Shown: in pieces, positions 465-22,021 of the stretch
Numbering within the stretch: the stretch's first letter is position 1
How the letters are laid out: the number at the start of each line of letters is the position of its first letter
Assembly: GCA_016217665.1 (NCBI GenBank)
Contig: JACRHF010000073.1
Coordinates: forward strand, 1 to 39,765
Length of the DNA: 39,765 nt
DNA from: Nitrospirota bacterium
GTDB taxonomy: Bacteria > Nitrospirota > 9FT-COMBO-42-15 > HDB-SIOI813
Direction: 5' to 3'
Position numbers and translations under genes: made by a program
The notes under the pieces: generated by a model
The model's input: the letters and a program-made list of their open reading frames with translations, nothing else
What the model was told of the DNA's origin: nothing
Databases searched by the model: none

Positions 465-959
465 TTATGCAAACCGCACCCCAAGTGTCCTTAACATTTC
501 AAAAGTGTCGATAAATTGCACATTGAATGTTTGGCAAACATTCGGAATTGGAATCTTTCTCCTTATATTAGGATCTAATAATTCATGGGTTACGAGGATG
601 CAACTTTTCACTTTGGCGTAAGCTACCAACCAGCCATCGGCGATAGTGGCAAAATTAGACTTGGCTGCGTCCGAAAACTGGCTCTGGCCATTCACCCAAA
701 TCATGATCTCACTGAAAGATTGGAAAATATCGGTTTCATCAGTTGAGGCAAATGCATGACCGAAATGGGCCTTTACCCATTCCGATAGAACATCATTTCC
801 TCGCTCCAGTTCCTGCTTGACGCGGTCAATACTCTGTACCCGCCCATTTTCAGCATGGGCAACCAAGCTGTCCCAGAATTTGGGAGCAAGGTCGAATGCA
901 TAGTAACGTCGCGCCGCTTGGATAAACACATTTGCATCAAGAATAAATACATCGGGCAT
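465..959 (-). CDS. DUF4411 family protein (PIN-like)
   Basis: MPDVFILDANVFIQAARRYYAFDLAPKFWDSL...: DANVFI start and DUF4411-like organisation; TAATG coupling with the upstream ImmA gene. Confidence 0.75.
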   Translation of the reverse strand: MPDVFILDANVFIQAARRYYAFDLAPKFWDSLVAHAENGRVQSIDRVKQELERGNDVLSEWVKAHFGHAFASTDETDIFQSFSEIMIWVNGQSQFSDAAKSNFATIADGWLVAYAKVKSCILVTHELLDPNIRRKIPIPNVCQTFNVQFIDTFEMLRTLGVRFA

Positions 960-2128
960 TACTGAGGTCTCCCGATCCTTAAAGAGGCCGCGTATCGATC
1001 GAAAGTCTTTCCGTACAGTCCCGTCAACTGGTAGGCTTCGGAATAAAGCAGGTTGCCTTCACCGGCTGCCCGAACCACGGCAGAGGCGAATCGCCGCCCT
1101 ACTCGCAAATTCTGACTAGCGAAAAAGTCCCCTCCTTTTGGTCGGCGGGCGGCTGCGCGGCGTTCGTCTTGTTGATAACCACGATAGAAATCCAGGAACA
1201 TATTTTTTTGAATCAAGCCAATGTCCAGTGTCCTGCGTGCGGCCACCAGCACACTTACTTTGAATTGGCGGGCGATTGTCTGAAAACAATTCGGATCGTC
1301 TTGAATAGAAGGCCAGACCTCGCGCAACCTGCGTTCCGGAACGAGAAACTCTGCCGCCACCCGATTGCACACTTGTTCTATCGGATCATCTGCCGGCTGC
1401 ATTTCACGCAGGTCAAAAGCGGCGCTACTGCCCAAAAACACATGGGCCAGTTCATGAGCGAGTGTGAACATCTGCGCGGCCTTGCCGTCAGAACCATTGA
1501 CAAACACGAGAGGTGCGTACTCGTCCACAAGAACAAAACCGCGAAATTCGCCAGGATCAAGCTTACGGTGAGTATTATTATCGACGATCCCATTGAATAC
1601 AACCAGAATTCCGGCATCTTCTATGGCCTCACGGAGCGCGCGTAATGCGCCTGTCCAAGTCGGCTGTTGGGCCGCCCATTCCTCATCAAAGCGTAACAAT
1701 CGCCGCAGCCGGTTTACTATAGCTGTGGGTTGCTCTTCAGGTTGTGCAGACCGTACGTAAGGCAGTGGTTCCTGACCTTGGTCTATCAGGAATTCGCGCA
1801 TCCAAGACTGCCGCCGCTGCATCATCTGAACAGTATCAAGAAGATTGGGACTTGGCCTGTCCGGGGTCCCACCACCAAGCGTTCGGAAGTGAGGAATTGG
1901 CAAGCGTTCCTCTGGCGGTTCAGGAAGGAAGAAAAACCCAAGCGGTGTCAGAGTGGATTTTGCCAGGGATTCTAATTGTCGAAACGTGGGCTGACTTTCG
2001 CCAGTAACCCACTGTTGTATTTTCGGAAATTTTTTCTGCAGATCATCGGGGGTCAGTCCGGCACGGTTTACCGCCCAGCGCAAAACACCTTCCCTAACGG
2101 CTACTCTGCTAATGGCCACTCTGCTCAT
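959..2128 (-). CDS. XRE-type HTH / ImmA-IrrE family metallopeptidase
   Basis: N-terminal HTH-like segment plus zincin motif HELAHVFLG (HExxH). Confidence 0.88.
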   Translation of the reverse strand: MSRVAISRVAVREGVLRWAVNRAGLTPDDLQKKFPKIQQWVTGESQPTFRQLESLAKSTLTPLGFFFLPEPPEERLPIPHFRTLGGGTPDRPSPNLLDTVQMMQRRQSWMREFLIDQGQEPLPYVRSAQPEEQPTAIVNRLRRLLRFDEEWAAQQPTWTGALRALREAIEDAGILVVFNGIVDNNTHRKLDPGEFRGFVLVDEYAPLVFVNGSDGKAAQMFTLAHELAHVFLGSSAAFDLREMQPADDPIEQVCNRVAAEFLVPERRLREVWPSIQDDPNCFQTIARQFKVSVLVAARRTLDIGLIQKNMFLDFYRGYQQDERRAAARRPKGGDFFASQNLRVGRRFASAVVRAAGEGNLLYSEAYQLTGLYGKTFDRYAASLRIGRPQ

Positions 2129-3429
2129 GCGGCTATCTCTTTCCGCACGTCTATCTTTCCAGTCACTGCCGCTGAAATAAGAGCTGTGCGGTATTCGCGG
2201 AGTTTATCAATGGACTGTTCAATTCGCTGTTGGAGTACCATGTATTTTCCAGTTTCTCTCTCGATGGCATTTACAATATTACGCTGTTCGAGGAGCGGCG
2301 GACAAGGTAAGCGTATTTCAAAAAACTCCTCTGGATATAAACGTAGCCGCGATGTCCACACACCTTTTGAGTGGCGGATAACTTCAGAAACAAATCGACT
2401 GGTACGAAAAAGGTAATCATAGAATAGAGGCTCATAGTCACTGGTTCTAAGCCTATACACGTTATATGAGGGACTAACTATTCCCGGTTCGAAGGCAATG
2501 CCCACCGCACCCATCCAAGCCCACATTGTGTTTATCACTAAATCTCTCGATTCACATCTCTTGTAGCCTTCCAAAGATTCAGCCAAAAACATAGTTACAT
2601 TTTTCTCAGATCTTCGCGTTACACCGGTTATGTGGGAAACCGTAAGGAGTTCCTCCTCCCCCGACGTAGAGCGCTCATTTATTTCTTTAAATAAGACCTT
2701 AGCCTTATTAATTCTCCAGTGTTCCGGTATGTCCCCCAGCCACTCAACACCGGAGTCTTTCATTTTTACATTCGGGTCAAGGCCCTTAGTAACGGCGTGG
2801 CTGACAAGGGCAGTGCGCTTTTCCTGCAAAAGCTCAATCTGTTTTTGTTTCTTTTCTATGAGAGCATCAATCCGCGCTGACTCACGGTCGAGAAAGGCCA
2901 CGATGGCGCGTTGCTCTAATAGGGGAGGAAGCACAACGCGTAAGTTGACAAAATCGGTGGCATTGATAGCTGGATAACTCACACCAACAGAACGTGCAAC
3001 AACGGAATCCACGAAATACGGAGCGCGCAGGGCATAAGAGGCGAACGAACTGTCTAAACCCTTTTTGGGGCGGATAACCGCAAAACCGGTGGATATGGTC
3101 AAGTTGACTTCGGGCTCAGCAATCGGAGCGATTGCCCGCAGATAGGTGCGAACGGTGGAGATAATCACATCGCCATTACGAACTTGCCGCCTGGCTCTCG
3201 AAGGCGCATTTTCGAATCGCATCGGTTCCTTTTTTTGAATTCCAGATATGGAGTCCACGCTACTAATGTCAACATACAGCATCTCGAAATCGGGGTCGGT
3301 GTTTTCGCTTAAAACATCGTCATTGTAGGAAGACACATATTTCAGACGACGTGTCTCCCAATGTTCAGGTATCTCACCCATCCACTTGATGCCAGAGTCC
3401 TTGTATCTCGGATATGCTCGCCAATTCAC
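2125..3429 (-). CDS. hsdS: Type I restriction-modification specificity subunit S
   Basis: Two target-recognition repeats (KDSGIKWMGEIPEHW / KDSGVEWLGDIPEHW) and conserved coiled-coil regions (LLEQRAIVAFLDRESARIDALI...). Confidence 0.93.
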   Translation of the reverse strand: MNWRAYPRYKDSGIKWMGEIPEHWETRRLKYVSSYNDDVLSENTDPDFEMLYVDISSVDSISGIQKKEPMRFENAPSRARRQVRNGDVIISTVRTYLRAIAPIAEPEVNLTISTGFAVIRPKKGLDSSFASYALRAPYFVDSVVARSVGVSYPAINATDFVNLRVVLPPLLEQRAIVAFLDRESARIDALIEKKQKQIELLQEKRTALVSHAVTKGLDPNVKMKDSGVEWLGDIPEHWRINKAKVLFKEINERSTSGEEELLTVSHITGVTRRSEKNVTMFLAESLEGYKRCESRDLVINTMWAWMGAVGIAFEPGIVSPSYNVYRLRTSDYEPLFYDYLFRTSRFVSEVIRHSKGVWTSRLRLYPEEFFEIRLPCPPLLEQRNIVNAIERETGKYMVLQQRIEQSIDKLREYRTALISAAVTGKIDVRKEIAA

Positions 3430-3471
3430 CCTATAACCTCAGTCAACATCACGTCGGTTTAGTATCATCGG

Positions 3472-3972
3472 TTATGCACAAAGGGTATAAGCAAATAAAC
3501 TAATAAATAGTAATAACCACCCACATGTAAAAAATTGGGGCACTCTAAGCATAAGAGAATGAGTCCGCCACTTGCCGAGTCGAGTTAGGAGGTACCAGTC
3601 CTGTATTAACGTTTGTTCATTAATGGTTTTTTCAAATAATGTGAGCACTCGTTCCCCATCTATCCTTAAGGTATCCTCCGTGCGTTCTGCTTGCTTAGCA
3701 CGGTAGTACTGGTACAACTGCTCCCGTTTCTGTATGAGGCCCCAGATCAATGATACAAAAAATCCAATGAAAGGGATTGCAAATGTTATTATAAGCGTAA
3801 AAAGATTTTTCTCTTTAAATGCATCACTATTAATAATAGTAGCAAGGGCGGCTATAAGAACACCATTTGTTACTATGAAGTAGTTAAATGCCTGGCGGGC
3901 CATATTATCCATGTGGCGATGCATTTCTACCGCCATTTTCCATTGTTCTAACAGCAAATCATTTTTGTCCAT
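3472..3972 (-). CDS. Small membrane protein with about three TM segments, RipA/SLATT-like organisation
   Basis: Hydrophobic segments FIVTNGVLIAALATII, LIITFAIPFIGFFVSLIWGLI, FFTCGWLLLFISLFAYTL; located between hsdM and hsdS. Confidence 0.6.
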   Translation of the reverse strand: MDKNDLLLEQWKMAVEMHRHMDNMARQAFNYFIVTNGVLIAALATIINSDAFKEKNLFTLIITFAIPFIGFFVSLIWGLIQKREQLYQYYRAKQAERTEDTLRIDGERVLTLFEKTINEQTLIQDWYLLTRLGKWRTHSLMLRVPQFFTCGWLLLFISLFAYTLCA

Positions 3973-3976
3973 TAGA

Positions 3977-4129
3977 TTACTTCCTTAAGACTAGAAAATC
4001 TGCATTACCCCAATCTTTGTAGCTTGCCACACCAATAATGATAGCCGTCCTTGTGTTTTTTCATTGTCTCGACACCGTAGAGACAATCTCAATCCCATAA
4101 TGGATTGACTTTATCGGTTTCCTGCTCAT
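3977..4129 (-). other. Short reading frame with one internal TGA, start overlapping the hsdM stop (ATGA)
   Basis: MSRKPIKSIHYGIEIVSTVSRQ*KNTRTAIIIGVASYKDWGNADFLVLRK* read from the minus strand. Confidence 0.4.
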
Positions 4130-5205
4130 TCTGTCACCTTCGAAAGCATCTCGGCAATTTTCTTCTCGATCTGCTTAAGGTCAGCTTCTATCTGCCCAAG
4201 CGGGCGAGGCGGGGTGTATTTGTAAAAATAGCGGTTAAAGTTTACCTCATAGCCAATCTTCGTCTTCGACTCATCCATCCAGGCATCCGGCACATGGGGG
4301 AGGACCTCCCGCTTTATGTACTCGCCCACATCCTCTTTCAGAGGCACGTTTTCATAATCCCGGAGTTCAGGATCGGGTTCTGGTTTGCCATTTGAGTCAG
4401 TGCAAATGTCTGCCGTCTCATCGCGCCCTGAAAGGGCCGTAAGAATTGCCTTGAAAAGCACGGCAGGAACTTTAACGCCGGATTCCTTAAAAGCTTCCTT
4501 CAACATTTTCACAAACTCCTCGCGATTCTTCACCACTCCCTTTACCGCAACCCCCTCGAGTGCGGAGATGATTGCATTTTGAAGTCCCATCCCTTCGGCT
4601 ATTTCAGCCTGTGCGGCCTTCGTATCTTTGCGCTTTCTGCTTGTGGCAAGATTGGAAAAAGCCGTAGCCTCTTTCAACCGGGCAAGGCCTTCGTTGTTCT
4701 CGGCAAAGTTCAACCTTAAGGGACGTTCAACCGTGATGCGCCGGTAACCGAGATCGGAGTAGTCGAAGATGCGGACATGTTCATTTTCCTTGAACTCTCC
4801 ATACAGACGGTCTGCCTTATCGAGTTTGGCGATGTGTTCTCCAAAACCGAAATGCTCGATAATTTTCCGGGCCTGGGTAGAAAAGCCCTTGATGTAGTGG
4901 GTCAGGTTCGAAGCGATGTTGTTAGGGTCGCCCTTGAGCTTCTCAAGAGTGATGAAACGGCTGGTGTTGTAGAAGGGAACTCCTGAGACCCGACACAGGA
5001 TTGGCTCGATATTTTTTAACTTACCCCCCTGGAGGCTCTTCAACCTTCCGAGCACCTTTTCTTTAGTCGGTTCCAGCACACAGTCAAGCCGCCTGAGGAC
5101 GGTCATGGGCAGCATAACGTCTTTATATTGGTTGGGGCGGTAGGGTCCGCGCAACAGGTCCGCCACAGACCATATAAAGCTGACCTTCTCATTAAAGTTA
5201 TCCAC
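4126..5205 (-). pseudogene. hsdM: Type I R-M modification subunit with in-frame loss of the central methyltransferase domain
   Basis: N-terminal FIWSVADLLRGPYRPNQYKDVMLPMTVLRRLDCVLEPTKEKVL...HIAKLDKADRLY joined directly to C-terminal GEFKENEHVRIFDYSDLGYRRITVERPLRLNF; no SAM motif I or NPPF/NPPY motif in the 359 aa. Confidence 0.88.
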
Positions 5206-5384: not shown

Positions 5385-6752
5385 TCAATTGCGAAAAAGA
5401 AGCTCTTCAACTATGGCGAGGTTTCGTTCCACGGCCCCTCTGTTCCTTACAATGATCTGGTAGCCCTTCTCGCCCATCTCCCTCTGCCGCCCGGTGTCAG
5501 GGACAAGCCCTTTCAGTGCCCTTGAAAGTTCCTCTCCGCCTTTAACCCGTATTCCGGCCCCGCATCTCAGGATCTCCTCTGTGATCTCACGGAAATTGAA
5601 CATGTGCTCTCCGAATATCACGGGCTTTCTGTAGTAGAGCGCCTCAAGGGGGTTCTGCCCGCCGTGCGGGATGAAGCTGCCGCCGATGATCACGACAGTG
5701 GCCATGCTGTAGAGGGTGGCAAGCTCGCCGATGGTGTCAACCATGATGACAGGAGGTGAATGGTGAACGGTAGATGCTGACTGGTTTTGTTGTGCGAGTT
5801 GGGTCCTTCTTATGGTTTCAAAACCAGAGGCCCTGACCAGGCTCTCAATCTCCCCTGTCCTCTCTATGTGCCTCGGGGCTATGATAAGCCTGATTTTTCC
5901 ACCCGAAAGGCCTCGATCAAATCCCCCCTGCCCCCCCTTTTCTAAAGGGGGGAAAACCCTTTCGTTCCGGCATTTATTATACGCTTCGAGGATGATCTCA
6001 TCCTCACCCCTGTGGGTGCTCCCGGCGATGATGACCCTGTCACCCTCCTCTATCCCGAACAACTCCCTCTTCTCTGTCAAGACCTGTTTATCGATATCAA
6101 TAAACCCCTGGTCGTATTTCATATTCCCTGTAACCTGAATGGCCTTCTCCGGCGCTCCTATGGCCCTGATCCTCTGGGCATCTTCTTCGCTCTGCATGCA
6201 GAAGAGGTCTACATAGGCAAGGACCTTCTTCATCAAAGGCCGGATGCGGCTGTAGCCTCTGAAGGTATGGGGGGAGATCCTCCCGTTGATAATAAGGGTC
6301 CTGGCCCCTGAGAGCTTGACCTGGCGCAGGAAGTTCGGCCATAGCTCTGTCTCAACAGAGATGAAGAGATCGGGCCTGATCCTCTGTAAAAATCTCCTGA
6401 CTGACCAGGGGAGGTCAAAAGGGAAGTAGACGATCTGGTCAACCTCAGGAAGCCGCTTGCAGGCCACCTCCCGGCCGGTCGGGGTAACGGTGGAGAGGAC
6501 AAGCCTCGTCTCCGGATGTCTTTTTTTAAGCTCTTTGATAAACGGAATGGCAGCGACCACCTCGCCAACTGAGACAGCGTGAATATGTATACCCCCCTTT
6601 TTCAAAGGGGGGATGGGGGGATTGGGCAATCCTATTCCAAGCTTTTCGAAAAACCCCTTCCGGTGCTTCTCCTTTGTGAGGACCTTATAGATCCAGAAAG
6701 GGGATGCAAGGATCAAGAGGGCTAAGAGTAAAAAATTGTAGAGAAGATACAT
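5385..6752 (-). CDS. waaA: 3-deoxy-D-manno-octulosonic-acid transferase, with two repeat-derived insertions
   Basis: HAVSVGEVVAAIPFIKEL, TVTPTGREVA, PFDLPWSVRRFL, GGSFIPHGGQNPLEAL motifs. Confidence 0.93.
   Translation of the reverse strand: MYLLYNFLLLALLILASPFWIYKVLTKEKHRKGFFEKLGIGLPNPPIPPLKKGGIHIHAVSVGEVVAAIPFIKELKKRHPETRLVLSTVTPTGREVACKRLPEVDQIVYFPFDLPWSVRRFLQRIRPDLFISVETELWPNFLRQVKLSGARTLIINGRISPHTFRGYSRIRPLMKKVLAYVDLFCMQSEEDAQRIRAIGAPEKAIQVTGNMKYDQGFIDIDKQVLTEKRELFGIEEGDRVIIAGSTHRGEDEIILEAYNKCRNERVFPPLEKGGQGGFDRGLSGGKIRLIIAPRHIERTGEIESLVRASGFETIRRTQLAQQNQSASTVHHSPPVIMVDTIGELATLYSMATVVIIGGSFIPHGGQNPLEALYYRKPVIFGEHMFNFREITEEILRCGAGIRVKGGEELSRALKGLVPDTGRQREMGEKGYQIIVRNRGAVERNLAIVEELLFRN
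5915..5960. repeat. Dispersed GC-rich palindromic repeat (CCCCCCTTTTCTAAAGGGGGG type), inside waaA
   Basis: gatcaaatcccccctgcccccccttttctaaaggggggaaaa. Confidence 0.85.
6589..6632. repeat. Dispersed palindromic repeat, second copy inside waaA
   Basis: accccccttttt caaaggggggatggggggattggg. Confidence 0.85.
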
Positions 6753-6826: not shown

Positions 6827-7519
6827 CTATTGTTCCTTGCGACCGTTGAAGTAATCGTCTGCCCTTTTCGTTATTTCATTCAGTCTCTGCTCGAGCTCAA
6901 GCCTCTTTTCTTCTAATTGGTCCTCTGTCAAATCCCTCCGGACATAAACAGGGTCTCCAAATATCACGGCCACCCGGCTGAAGGGCCATGGGATCATAAA
7001 CCGGTCCCAGCTCTTCAGGAAGACCGCCCTTTCTGCGCCATAGGTAATCGGCAGGATGGGGACGCCGGTGAGCATTGCAAGATGGATCACCCCTTCCTGA
7101 ACCTTCAATGCCGGTCCCCGTGAGCCATCTGCAATAATGGCGGCAGAGTTTCCCTTTTTAACAATCCTTATAAGCCCCCGGAAGGCCCGGGTCCCTCCTT
7201 TGAAGGAAGACCCCCGGATGACACTTAAACCGGATAGCCTCAGGATGTTCGCAATGATCTCACCGTCACTGCTGGGGCTCACAAGACAATGGATCCTCCC
7301 CTGCCCGCGATAGAAGTACGGCCAGTAAAAGAGTCTTCCATGCCATAGGGCATAAATAGGCGGTATCCCCTGAGCAAAGAGAGACTGTTCAATCTCTCCC
7401 CCCTTGAGCCGTTTTCTGTAAGTCATGCCGAGGAGGAATATCGTGGCCATGCCTACGGGTGGGAGGATATATTTGTAGGTGAAATTTTTTATCAGCGTCA
7501 TCCGAAAATCCCCGATCAA
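6827..7519 (-). CDS. Lysophospholipid acyltransferase family protein (DUF374)
   Basis: ALWHGRLFYWPYFYRGQGRIHCLVSPSSDGEIIANIL, ADGSRGPALKVQEGVIHLA. Confidence 0.85.
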   Translation of the reverse strand: MIGDFRMTLIKNFTYKYILPPVGMATIFLLGMTYRKRLKGGEIEQSLFAQGIPPIYALWHGRLFYWPYFYRGQGRIHCLVSPSSDGEIIANILRLSGLSVIRGSSFKGGTRAFRGLIRIVKKGNSAAIIADGSRGPALKVQEGVIHLAMLTGVPILPITYGAERAVFLKSWDRFMIPWPFSRVAVIFGDPVYVRRDLTEDQLEEKRLELEQRLNEITKRADDYFNGRKEQ

Positions 7520-7552
7520 ATCCCCCCTTCCCCCCTTTTTCTAAAGGGGGGG
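7514..7552. repeat. Dispersed palindromic repeat between rdgB and the DUF374 gene
   Basis: gatcaaatccccccttcccccctttttctaaagggggg. Confidence 0.85.
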
Positions 7553-14906: not shown

Positions 14907-16283
14907 ATGTCTAAGGACACATCAGATTCGAGGAGCCTCTCTTATGCAATAAAGGACGGGGTCTATTTTTCGATCATGGGGGGGATTGGAGAGGGGTATA
15001 TCAGCCCCTTTGCCATCTACCTGAAGGCGACAAACTATCAGATAGGGCTCCTGGCATCTATCCCTCCCCTCTTAGGCGCCTTTGTCCAGTTCCTGTCTGT
15101 CAGTATCCTTAACCGTATCAAAGACCGGAGGGCTCTTATCATCACGGGTGTAATTGCCCAGGCCCTTACCTGGATCCCTATCCTCCTGCTTCCCCTCATC
15201 TTCAGACCCTATGCAGTACCTCTCCTCATCATCGGGATCACCGCATACTTCTGCTTTGGAAACCTCGCCACCCCACCCTGGAACAGCCTGATGGGTGACA
15301 TCGTACCTGAAAAAACCCGGAGCACCTATTTTGGGCACCGCAACCGGATAATGAGCATCTTTTCTCTTGGCGCACTGACTCTAGCGGGCCTGATCCTTCA
15401 TGCGACAGAAAAGACCGGCTGGCTCTGGATCGGGTTCTCTCTTCTCTTCACTATAGCCCTCATATCAAGACTCCTGTCCGCTTATTGTCTTTCCAGGATG
15501 GACAATCCTGCTTATGTTGTCCATGAGAAAGACAATTTCAGCCTATGGCAATTCTTTGCAGATTTCAGACACTCAAGCTTCGTGAAGTTCGTTGTTTATA
15601 CCGGTTTGATTCACCTTTCTGTGATGCTGGCGGGTCCCTTCTTCGCTGTCTACATGCTGAGAGACCTTCACTTCTCTTATCTCCAATTCATGTCGGTCTC
15701 TGCCATCGCCGTGTTGGTCCAATATTTTACACTCCACAACTGGGGGAAATTCGGAGACAAGTTTGGGAACAGGAAGGCGCTTGTCATCGCAGGATTTACC
15801 CTTCCTGTCGTACCGGTGCTCTGGCTGTTCTCCACAAATTTTTATTTTATCCTGGTGATTCAGATGTTAGCCGGTTTTGCCTGGGCAGGTTTTAGCTTAA
15901 GCATGGGGAATTTCATATACGACGCCATCCCCTCACCCCAGCGCGCAAAGTGCGTGGCTATATTCAATGTTGTGAATGCAATCGGAATATTTTCCGGGGC
16001 AGCAATAGGTGGCTGGCTAACAAGATATCTCCCTTTATCACTTTCTATATCTGAACTTACGGTTTCGATGGTTTCAAATCTTCAATGGCTCTTCCTGATC
16101 TCCGGCGTTCTGAGACTTTTTATGTCTCTCCTCTTTCTGCCGGCCATCAGGGAGATGCGGGAGGTAGAACCTCTGACTCTAAGGGATCTGATTTTCAGGG
16201 TCTCTTCCATACGGCCTTTCTCAGGCCTCCGGTTTGACCTCTTTACAGGGAACAACAAAGACAAAAAAGACTCTAAACCTTAA
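14907..16283 (+). CDS. MFS transporter
   Basis: About 12 hydrophobic segments; MFS-like topology. Confidence 0.82.
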   Translation: MSKDTSDSRSLSYAIKDGVYFSIMGGIGEGYISPFAIYLKATNYQIGLLASIPPLLGAFVQFLSVSILNRIKDRRALIITGVIAQALTWIPILLLPLIFRPYAVPLLIIGITAYFCFGNLATPPWNSLMGDIVPEKTRSTYFGHRNRIMSIFSLGALTLAGLILHATEKTGWLWIGFSLLFTIALISRLLSAYCLSRMDNPAYVVHEKDNFSLWQFFADFRHSSFVKFVVYTGLIHLSVMLAGPFFAVYMLRDLHFSYLQFMSVSAIAVLVQYFTLHNWGKFGDKFGNRKALVIAGFTLPVVPVLWLFSTNFYFILVIQMLAGFAWAGFSLSMGNFIYDAIPSPQRAKCVAIFNVVNAIGIFSGAAIGGWLTRYLPLSLSISELTVSMVSNLQWLFLISGVLRLFMSLLFLPAIREMREVEPLTLRDLIFRVSSIRPFSGLRFDLFTGNNKDKKDSKP

Positions 16284-16588
16284 ACCTTCCTGAGGACTAT
16301 TTTATCGCCAGGATATTCGACTAACACGGTATCATCCGATATCTTCTCTGTTTTTATGCTCCCCTCCACCCTGACTCTACCCCAATCCTGCTGATATCTG
16401 TCTGCAATCTTTTTAAGTGTCCTGTTGGCATTGTCCAGGATCTCGATCACTGAGTTAAGGGCATACTGCAACTCTGTGGTCGCAGACTTCCAATCCTTCT
16501 TTGCCATAAAATAGTTGAATTTTGCAAGGTGAAGGTCCATTGCGATCTTACAGGCCTGTGGGTCCCGCATCTTCGAATCATCTTCCAT
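16280..16588 (-). CDS. Hypothetical protein
   Basis: ORF; likely start MEDDSKMRDPQACKIAMD at 16588 rather than the upstream Met at 16654. Confidence 0.5.
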   Translation of the reverse strand: MEDDSKMRDPQACKIAMDLHLAKFNYFMAKKDWKSATTELQYALNSVIEILDNANRTLKKIADRYQQDWGRVRVEGSIKTEKISDDTVLVEYPGDKIVLRKV

Positions 16589-16856
16589 GGTGTTCTCCTC
16601 GTGGTTTATTGATGACCGACTTTTCTCTCTTATATAGCCATAAGTAAGTTGCAAAAACTATGCAACCAGAAAAAGAGTGGAGGGATGAGGGTGAAAGACC
16701 TCTCTAACCTATTTAGTTTTATGAGGAAAATCTCTAATTGAATGGTCTGCAGAAATATCAGGAGATATCAACAGATGTGGAATGTTATTGATTCATTATT
16801 ATACACATCGATAATTCGTAGCCTTTTTATACAGCAGAGAGCCCTTTGTAGATTCC

Positions 16857-18094: not shown

Positions 18095-19075
18095 TTGCTA
18101 CCCTTGGAAGGCATGGGAATAGAGTGTGATAAATACTATTTTGATGTTGTATATGGGCCCACGTTCATTGACCGCAGGAAAAGGACCCCTACAAACAGGC
18201 TAAGGCGGTTTTTGAACAACTATTGGCTTATCCCGGTCTTCACACTCTGCTTAGAGCTCTTTGCAATCACCCTTCCGCCCACAGACTCCCCTATAAAAAA
18301 CCTCAAAGATAGAAACATCTATTTCCTCAAAGGCCCTGTTATTCTCTATAACCTGGCATCTACCGATTTCCCGTATGCGTTGATTGGACACTTTAAAGAG
18401 ATTACCCTTGTTAAAAAGTATAGCTTTAATATCGATCAGGTCCCTTCTGAGGATATTGCCAGGGCCCTGGAAAACAAGGAATCTGTTAGGAAGATCTACA
18501 GGCGGGTTATTGAATCCAGGAGTTACGCCAACACAGAGCTTGGCGGTATCATCACATTAGTGAATACCCCCGAAGGACCAGAACTTCACCTGCATGAAAT
18601 TCCCTCCCTCAACAAGGGCTTTTCAGAAAAGCTCCATGGCCTTGAAAACTCTTCTATAGAGGAATTTATCGCGTTTCTGCAAAAACAGGAGAGCCGGGAG
18701 ACGTTGGCCAGGGTGGGGATGGATGAGTATATCACGGACAACTTGGTGAACGTGCTTTTATCACAAAAACCGGATAAAGACCGCAAGCGGATCCTGGTTA
18801 AAGATTTCATCAAGACCTATGATATACACTCTGAGTGCAAATACATCCTCTCTCCTTACGATTTTAAATCCATCCTCGGCGCATCAAATATAGAGGGGAA
18901 ATATGTAGGACTATTCCACTTCCACAACAACTACATGGAGCCCCCTTCAGAGGTGGATATCGCCAATAGCTCTGCAGACAGACAGATCGTCATCACCCTG
19001 GGGGATAGGGGAATCGTCATTTATGACCTTATCAAAGGGAAGGATTTCATTTACAGGGGAGATCTGCTCTCCTGA
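18095..19075 (+). CDS. Uncharacterised protein with C-terminal JAMM/MPN+-like metalloprotease motif
   Basis: FHFHNNYMEPPSEVDIA matches HxHx7SxxD exactly; candidate upstream Glu in NTELGGIITLV. Confidence 0.65.
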   Translation: MLPLEGMGIECDKYYFDVVYGPTFIDRRKRTPTNRLRRFLNNYWLIPVFTLCLELFAITLPPTDSPIKNLKDRNIYFLKGPVILYNLASTDFPYALIGHFKEITLVKKYSFNIDQVPSEDIARALENKESVRKIYRRVIESRSYANTELGGIITLVNTPEGPELHLHEIPSLNKGFSEKLHGLENSSIEEFIAFLQKQESRETLARVGMDEYITDNLVNVLLSQKPDKDRKRILVKDFIKTYDIHSECKYILSPYDFKSILGASNIEGKYVGLFHFHNNYMEPPSEVDIANSSADRQIVITLGDRGIVIYDLIKGKDFIYRGDLLS

Positions 19076-20581: not shown

Positions 20582-22021
20582 ATGAAAATAATCCCCCTTA
20601 TTCCCCCTTTAGAAAAGGGGGGGAGGGGGGATTTGATCGGAGAATTTCGGATGCAACGATGCTATATGACTTATAAACTCCTCCGAACAAGATTTGTATT
20701 GCTATTAGGACTTGTAATCTCTCTTCTCGCACTGACGTCACAAGAGATTCTCGCTTCCCCAAAGGCTGAGCCAAAGCGGGTTGTCCTCGATAACGGGATT
20801 ATACTCCTTATTACCGAGACCCACGCCCTCCCTATGGTAAATATCTCCGTGGCCGTCAAGACAGGGGCCATCTATGACCCCCCGGGGAAGGGAGGAGTTG
20901 CAAGTCTTACCGCCATTTTGCTTGACGAGGGAACAAAAACCAGGACTTCAAGACAAATCGCTGAAGAGATTGACTTTATCGGGGGGAGCCTTTCCACCTC
21001 CGGCGGCATGGACTACTCCTCTGCCTCATTGGTGGTCCTCAAAAAAGACATTGCAACAGGTCTGGCCCTCCTGTCTGATATCCTGATAAATCCTGTCTTC
21101 CCTGAAGAGGAGGTCGAGAGGAAGAAAAAGGAGACCCTGGCCGCTATCCTGGCAGAGAAGGATGATCCCGGCTCAGTGGCATCCAAGGCCTTTTATAAGG
21201 CCGTGTTTGGCAGCCACCCTTACGGCGCCCCTCCAGAAGGGAACGAAGAGACAATTCCTAAAATATCGCGGGAGGATCTCGTCAGTTTTTATCAAAAATA
21301 CTACACGCCTAATAATACGATCATCGCCGTAGTCGGCGACGTTGACCTTAAAGAGGCGGTCGCCCTGATAGAGGGACACTTTAAGTCCTGGGAAAAGAAA
21401 GAGGGTCAGTTTCCGGACATCTCTCCAGTTAAAAGACTGACAAAAAGGGATTCCATACTCATTGACAAAAACATCACGCAGGCCAATATTCTCTTAGGTC
21501 ACACCGGTATATCCAGGGATAACCCGGATTTTTACGCCGTCTATGTAATGAACTACATCCTCGGCGGTGGAGGCTTCTCGTCACGATTAACTAAGGAGAT
21601 CAGGGACAACAAAGGGCTGGCCTATGGAGTCTATAGCCGGTTCGACTTAAGTAAGCAACCCGGTGCCTTTGCCGTTTCGATTCAGACAAAGAATGAGACA
21701 GCCCGTGTCGCCATTGACAATATATTAACGGAGATAAAGAGGATCAGAGAAGAGCAGGTCGCTGATGAAGAGCTCAGGGAGGCAAAGGACTACCTTACAG
21801 GAAGTTTCCCGCTTAAACTTGATACGAATGCCAAGATCGCCAACTATGTTGTCTTCATGGAGTTCTACAACCTCGGGCTTGACTACTTCGACCAATACCT
21901 GAAACACATAGCGTCTGTAACAAAGGAGGATATCCTGCGGGTTGCGAAAAAGTATATTGACACGGAAAATTTTGTGACCGTGGCCGTAGCCCAGCAGGAG
22001 AAGGCAGGACTCAAGGAATGA
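20582..22021 (+). CDS. M16 family peptidase-like protein lacking HxxEH (non-catalytic partner)
   Basis: M16 fold sequence, but LTAILLDEGT replaces the zinc motif; true start may be downstream of the repeat-derived leader. Confidence 0.9.
   Translation: MKIIPLIPPLEKGGRGDLIGEFRMQRCYMTYKLLRTRFVLLLGLVISLLALTSQEILASPKAEPKRVVLDNGIILLITETHALPMVNISVAVKTGAIYDPPGKGGVASLTAILLDEGTKTRTSRQIAEEIDFIGGSLSTSGGMDYSSASLVVLKKDIATGLALLSDILINPVFPEEEVERKKKETLAAILAEKDDPGSVASKAFYKAVFGSHPYGAPPEGNEETIPKISREDLVSFYQKYYTPNNTIIAVVGDVDLKEAVALIEGHFKSWEKKEGQFPDISPVKRLTKRDSILIDKNITQANILLGHTGISRDNPDFYAVYVMNYILGGGGFSSRLTKEIRDNKGLAYGVYSRFDLSKQPGAFAVSIQTKNETARVAIDNILTEIKRIREEQVADEELREAKDYLTGSFPLKLDTNAKIANYVVFMEFYNLGLDYFDQYLKHIASVTKEDILRVAKKYIDTENFVTVAVAQQEKAGLKE
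20590..20646. repeat. Dispersed palindromic repeat at the M16 gene start
   Basis: aatcccccttattccccctttagaaaagggggggaggggggatttgatcggag. Confidence 0.85.

Follow-up and report, generated by a model that had tools for sequence, protein, structure and literature searches.

What is known of JAMM enzymes in bacteria concerns almost exclusively proteases that work inside the cell on ubiquitin-like or sulfur-carrier proteins. The gene described here raises the question of whether a protein that carries a JAMM-like motif behind a hydrophobic N-terminal segment belongs to this superfamily, and on which side of the membrane it would work. It lies in a stretch of 39,765 nucleotides from a Nitrospirota bacterium (contig JACRHF010000073.1, assembly GCA_016217665.1), the whole of which is referred to as the window. 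The protein is probably a divergent member of the JAB/MPN (JAMM, MPN+) superfamily with an intact active site; a single N-terminal helix would anchor it in the inner membrane and leave the zinc-hydrolase domain on the periplasmic side.

The earlier note on this DNA had claimed a perfect JAMM signature, and one H-x-H-x7-S-x-x-D motif was found exactly at the place given, in an intact open reading frame (ORF) (Table 1). The word perfect was an overstatement, as the sequence reads H-F-H-N. With residues numbered from the ATG at 18113, E148, H275, H277, and D288 of that note become E142, H269, H271, and D282. In the 11,138 residues of the annotated ORFs of the window, 0.0097 occurrences of the motif were expected against one observed. 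Relatives were sought within the same phylum, in the host's own family and in three other families with matches; 16 of 396 genomes, spread over the four families, were positive, and hence the gene is patchy but recurrent. A close named relative (L013, a Nitrospirae metagenome genome) shares 70% identity; a scan of genome contigs with the single window protein recovered only one close relative, and no relatives were found in viral contigs. The resulting alignment (A3) comprises 18 sequences with 28–70% identity to the window protein. Thirty-three positions are invariant in it, including G144, G145, S165, N167, and P278, and E142, H269, H271, N272, S279, and D282 are unchanged in 18/18 sequences, down to 28% identity. 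None of the 18 has a broken active site, and the loss of H/H/S/D among orthologues, named beforehand as the observation that would speak against a JAMM assignment, was not seen. The residue between the two histidines is Phe or Val in 18/18, and Asn follows the second histidine. The strict JAMM motif is EXnH(S/T)HX7SXXD (PMC300881); with Phe/Val in place of Ser/Thr and Asn in place of Pro, the family agrees with the motif in its relaxed form only.

The invariance of the complete E/H/H/S/D set argues for retained hydrolase chemistry. This bears on the suggestion that the family has a JAB fold but no peptidase activity, being a binding or scaffold protein or catalyzing another cleavage. Nuclease activity has been proposed for divergent JAB clades, including the RadC clade and toxin JABs (PMC3482391), and the divergence from JAMM proteins acting on ubiquitin-like proteins (Ubls), the HxHN form, and the lack of a recognised Ubl partner would suit such a role. 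With the active-site set retained, and a nuclease less likely at the predicted periplasmic membrane location, we regard this suggestion as rather improbable.

Homology to the superfamily was evaluated at the level of single sequences and of profiles. The window protein alone matched Prok-JAB (PF14464) in Pfam with an E-value of 0.07 and 13.4 bits, under the curated cut-off of 25 bits, and a desampylase was a sub-threshold match in a single-sequence scan (E 0.17). Over the members, Prok-JAB was the top Pfam family, with matches to 7 of the 18 (best E 0.0024); every other family matched a single member at most, and no RadC model was among the Pfam matches of any of them. In a profile search of the PDB, the sole match below E = 10 was the MPN protein SRU_2040 of Salinibacter ruber (2kcq), a shorter protein of 153 residues; the match was weak (E 1.9) and in register over 45 residues around the motif. 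The profile of the family was further compared, using hhalign, with that of 26 canonical Prok-JABs of the same phylum. The score was 34.2, in comparison with a mean of 13.8 (standard deviation 2.6, maximum 22.7) for 150 shuffles, and the aligned region included the Y-x-(L/M)-(S/D)-P element in addition to HxH. When residues 172–232 were excised in silico, the score rose to 36.5 (probability 80%, 117 columns) and the alignment reached the catalytic Glu; other excision boundaries gave probabilities of 64–65%. Excision of residues 170–236 paired E142-LGG with ECCG, placed the PSLN strand beside MTN, and paired Y-x-LSP with Y-x-MDP and HFHN...S..D with HSHP...S..D.

The family thus shares with Prok-JAB, the bacterial JAMM proteins of Ubl and sulfur-carrier systems, the same order of elements: E-x-x-G, a strand, N, the Y-x-x-x-P element, HxH, and S-x-x-D. 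It differs in H-[FV]-H-N for H-[ST]-H-P, in a helical insertion of about 70 residues, in the membrane anchor, in scores below the family cut-off, and in the absence of recognised Ubl or E1 neighbors. The family has in common with AfJAMM and the other EXnHS/THX7SXXD proteases (PMC300881) all the zinc ligands, the catalytic Glu, and the oxyanion Ser, each invariant here; the differences lie in Phe/Val between the histidines, the longer Glu–His spacing, and the anchor. The window protein probably represents a new branch within the JAB/MPN superfamily, outside the strict JAMM proteins and, by the cut-off, outside Pfam Prok-JAB. That the motif is instead a convergent resemblance in an unrelated membrane-anchored protein of another fold would agree with the failure of the protein to reach any curated family threshold and with low-confidence structure models that gave no significant fold match. 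It is very unlikely in view of a profile score far over all 150 shuffles, the correct order in which the Glu and PSLN motifs join the alignment upon excision, and a chance of about 6e-4 for the motif in a protein of such composition, before conservation is counted.

The Glu, expected from the earlier note about 125 residues before HxH, was located as E142 in an E-x-G-G context at a distance of 127 residues. This spacing is 119–127 across the orthologues, as against 54–55 in the 26 canonical Prok-JABs, which confirms the long insertion between the core strands; its helical nature, also put forward in that note, is in agreement with an all-helical prediction. AlphaFold models were built from two sequences only (the window protein and L013), leaving the 18-row alignment aside. 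The predicted secondary structure consisted of strands 142–152 and 155–164, the helical insertion, strand 263–271, helix 280–285, and three further strands, an order compatible with an MPN fold in models of this confidence. Local confidence was highest in the insertion, which was modeled as helices. Four MPN structures (2kcq, 1r5x, 5ld9, and 1oi0) were among the top 35 fold matches, at non-significant E-values of 0.4–2, most of them with a lower root-mean-square deviation than the other matches.

Several observations weigh against a periplasmic JAB/MPN hydrolase. The window protein scores below the cut-off of every curated family, and HxHN with Phe/Val between the histidines is a departure from the strict motif. 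The mean predicted local distance difference test (pLDDT) score of the models is poor (43 for the full length and 56 for residues 101–320), and the fold search gave no match at E ≤ 0.001. The topology, too, is a prediction from hydrophobicity and charge.

The segment on which this prediction is based is present once in each of the 18 proteins, with Wimley-White octanol sums of −8.8 to −13.3 kcal/mol. Regions downstream of it in the same proteins gave −4.2 to +2.2, and the 26 Prok-JAB controls −3.2 to +6.8. The flanking Lys/Arg residues are mostly N-terminal in nearly all rows; L034 is the sole exception, and there the highest Kyte-Doolittle window does not coincide with the anchor. From the hydrophobic segment and the N-terminal excess of Lys/Arg, the predicted topology is an N-terminus in the cytoplasm, a single helix, and a catalytic domain outside (in the periplasm). 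A cytoplasmic catalytic domain, through the opposite topology or a peripheral hydrophobic helix, which as in other bacterial JAMMs would process a ubiquitin-like or sulfur-carrier protein, here one not recognised, would be in keeping with the modest Kyte-Doolittle values of the anchors in families f25 and f31 (1.3–1.4). It appears unlikely, given the strong octanol hydrophobicity in 18/18, the N-terminal position of most flanking charges, the absence of a recognised E1, ThiS/MoaD, or Ubl neighbor in the loci examined, and the presence of a separate canonical Prok-JAB elsewhere in the same genome. MoaE was not detected in this genome, which is 77% complete.

The N-terminus had been likened in the earlier note to a toxin or secreted-effector linker. 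What was found instead is an invariant basic motif followed by a predicted membrane anchor, in a lineage-conserved chromosomal gene. Polymorphic-toxin JABs share with the family a JAB domain acting outside the producing cell (here by prediction) and a divergent motif (HxH in Tox-JAB-1), but they are C-terminal modules of large trafficking proteins accompanied by immunity genes. The proteins of this family are encoded by lone genes, stand alone at about 300–330 residues with an N-terminal anchor, and have lineage-conserved neighbors, and no immunity gene was recognised in the loci examined; the toxin/effector reading was rejected.

Table 1. Coordinates of the JAMM-like gene and of the sequence elements discussed (positions in the window; residues counted from the ATG at 18113).
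Feature	Position	Strand	Remarks
Gene of predicted membrane-anchored JAMM-like protein, 320 residues	18113..19075	+	Start taken at the ATG, with TTG at 18095 as a possible alternative; orthologues of similar length
N-terminal basic motif DRRKRTPTNRLRRFLNNYW, residues 20-38, predicted cytoplasmic	18170..18226	+	R21, R22, R31, R32, N35, W38 invariant in 18
Predicted transmembrane segment YWLIPVFTLCLELFAITLP, residues 37-55	18221..18277	+	Wimley-White octanol sum -10.3 kcal/mol
FPxxxxGHxxE stretch, residues 86-96, after the anchor and before the catalytic domain	18368..18400	+	F86, P87, G92, H93, E96 invariant
Putative catalytic Glu motif ELGG (E142)	18536..18547	+	[ST]ExGG invariant in 18; pairs with Prok-JAB ECCG once insertion is excised
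SLN, residues 165-167, closing second core strand; counterpart of Prok-JAB MTN	18605..18613	+	S165 and N167 invariant; aligned near MTN
Helical insertion between core strands, residues 168-240	18614..18832	+	Spacing about 65-73 residues above canonical; predicted all-helical
YILSPYDFKSILG, residues 244-256, counterpart of Prok-JAB Y-x-MDP-x-EQ before HxH strand	18842..18880	+	Profile alignments and 2kcq alignment
Putative zinc-site motif HxHN-x6-S-x2-D, HFHNNYMEPPSEVD (H269, H271, S279, D282)	18917..18958	+	Invariance; chance expectation

Apart from the JAMM core, the invariant FPxxxxGHxxE stretch is a possible second functional site.

The genomic neighborhood was assigned from ORF starts and BLAST with the window genes, and a few neighbors were checked in Pfam. 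Neighbors vary between lineages and are conserved within each lineage. In family f1, the JAMM-like gene is divergent from a LysM-SLT transglycosylase gene, and M16a, M16b, and a LarE-like gene usually come after it, which bears out the LysM transglycosylase and M16 peptidase neighbors named in the earlier note. In f2, a short-chain dehydrogenase gene adjoins it in 3/4 loci, and of the six f25/f31 loci examined, five have it upstream of rplI and four have bactofilin genes in the vicinity. No adjoining E1/ThiF, ThiS/MoaD, or Ubl gene was recognised in the loci examined, and the absence of a RadC, sulfur-carrier, or phage-tail context claimed earlier is supported. A functional unit with the adjacent M16 peptidases, as a proteolytic envelope operon, is suggested by the consecutive and co-directional JAMM-like, M16a, and M16b genes in the window and five f1 relatives. 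It is most improbable, since one f1 genome (G006) has the JAMM-like gene with no M16 adjoining, another genome (G002) keeps M16a/M16b with no detectable JAMM-like gene beside them, and the neighbors in f2, f25, and f31 are typically the short-chain dehydrogenase or rplI.

Other features were noted in these loci. A small protein without a Pfam match, encoded at 16280–16654 (−), is a conserved neighbor of the LysM-SLT gene in those f1 loci that were examined. In four f25 genomes, a signal-peptide-like protein of about 200 residues (L042:8456–9136 and similar ORFs in L043, L044, and L046) is divergent from the JAMM-like gene, with no Pfam match where tested. An interspersed repeat, CGATCAAATCCCCCC...TTTTCTAAAGGGGG, occurs in three copies (5914–5952, 7513–7551, and 20603–20639); as one copy falls inside the N-terminus of the M16b ORF (IPPLEKGGRGD), the true M16b start is probably downstream. 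At 465–5205, consecutive PIN-domain, ImmA/IrrE-like, HsdS-like, and HsdM-like ORFs have, by eye from their translations, the look of a type I restriction-modification island.

The data at hand show the motif, its conservation, the profile homology, the insertion, and the hydrophobic anchor; the fold, zinc binding, topology, activity, and substrate class are inferred. For the favored membrane-anchored JAB/MPN hydrolase, a mechanism may be proposed by analogy with AfJAMM (PMC300881). The zinc ligands would be H269, H271, and D282; E142 would act as the acid–base that activates water, and S279 would stabilize the transition state or intermediate. The helical insertion of about 70 residues beside the active site is probably a lid or a surface for substrate or partner binding. 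Its most likely role would be that of a zinc peptidase/amidase tethered to the membrane, with an envelope protein, or less likely peptidoglycan, as its target rather than ubiquitin-like tails; an envelope protein or peptide is suggested as the substrate by the predicted location. More tentatively, these proteins could form a class, not described before, of inner-membrane-anchored periplasmic bacterial JAMM metallopeptidases with a helical lid and an envelope substrate unrelated to ubiquitin-like proteins, which we hold to be possible. The distribution given here covers one phylum, and a name for the family may exist in other databases. At the level of titles and abstracts, no precedent for a periplasmic or membrane JAMM was found in the literature, many matches seemingly being on words like "jamming." The helical insertion, the invariant HxHN, and GHxxE offer concrete sites for testing. 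If the proposal is true, JAMM chemistry would serve as an envelope protease, and the range of substrates and locations known for the JAMM fold would be widened by a conserved, chromosomal, membrane-anchored family that faces outward.
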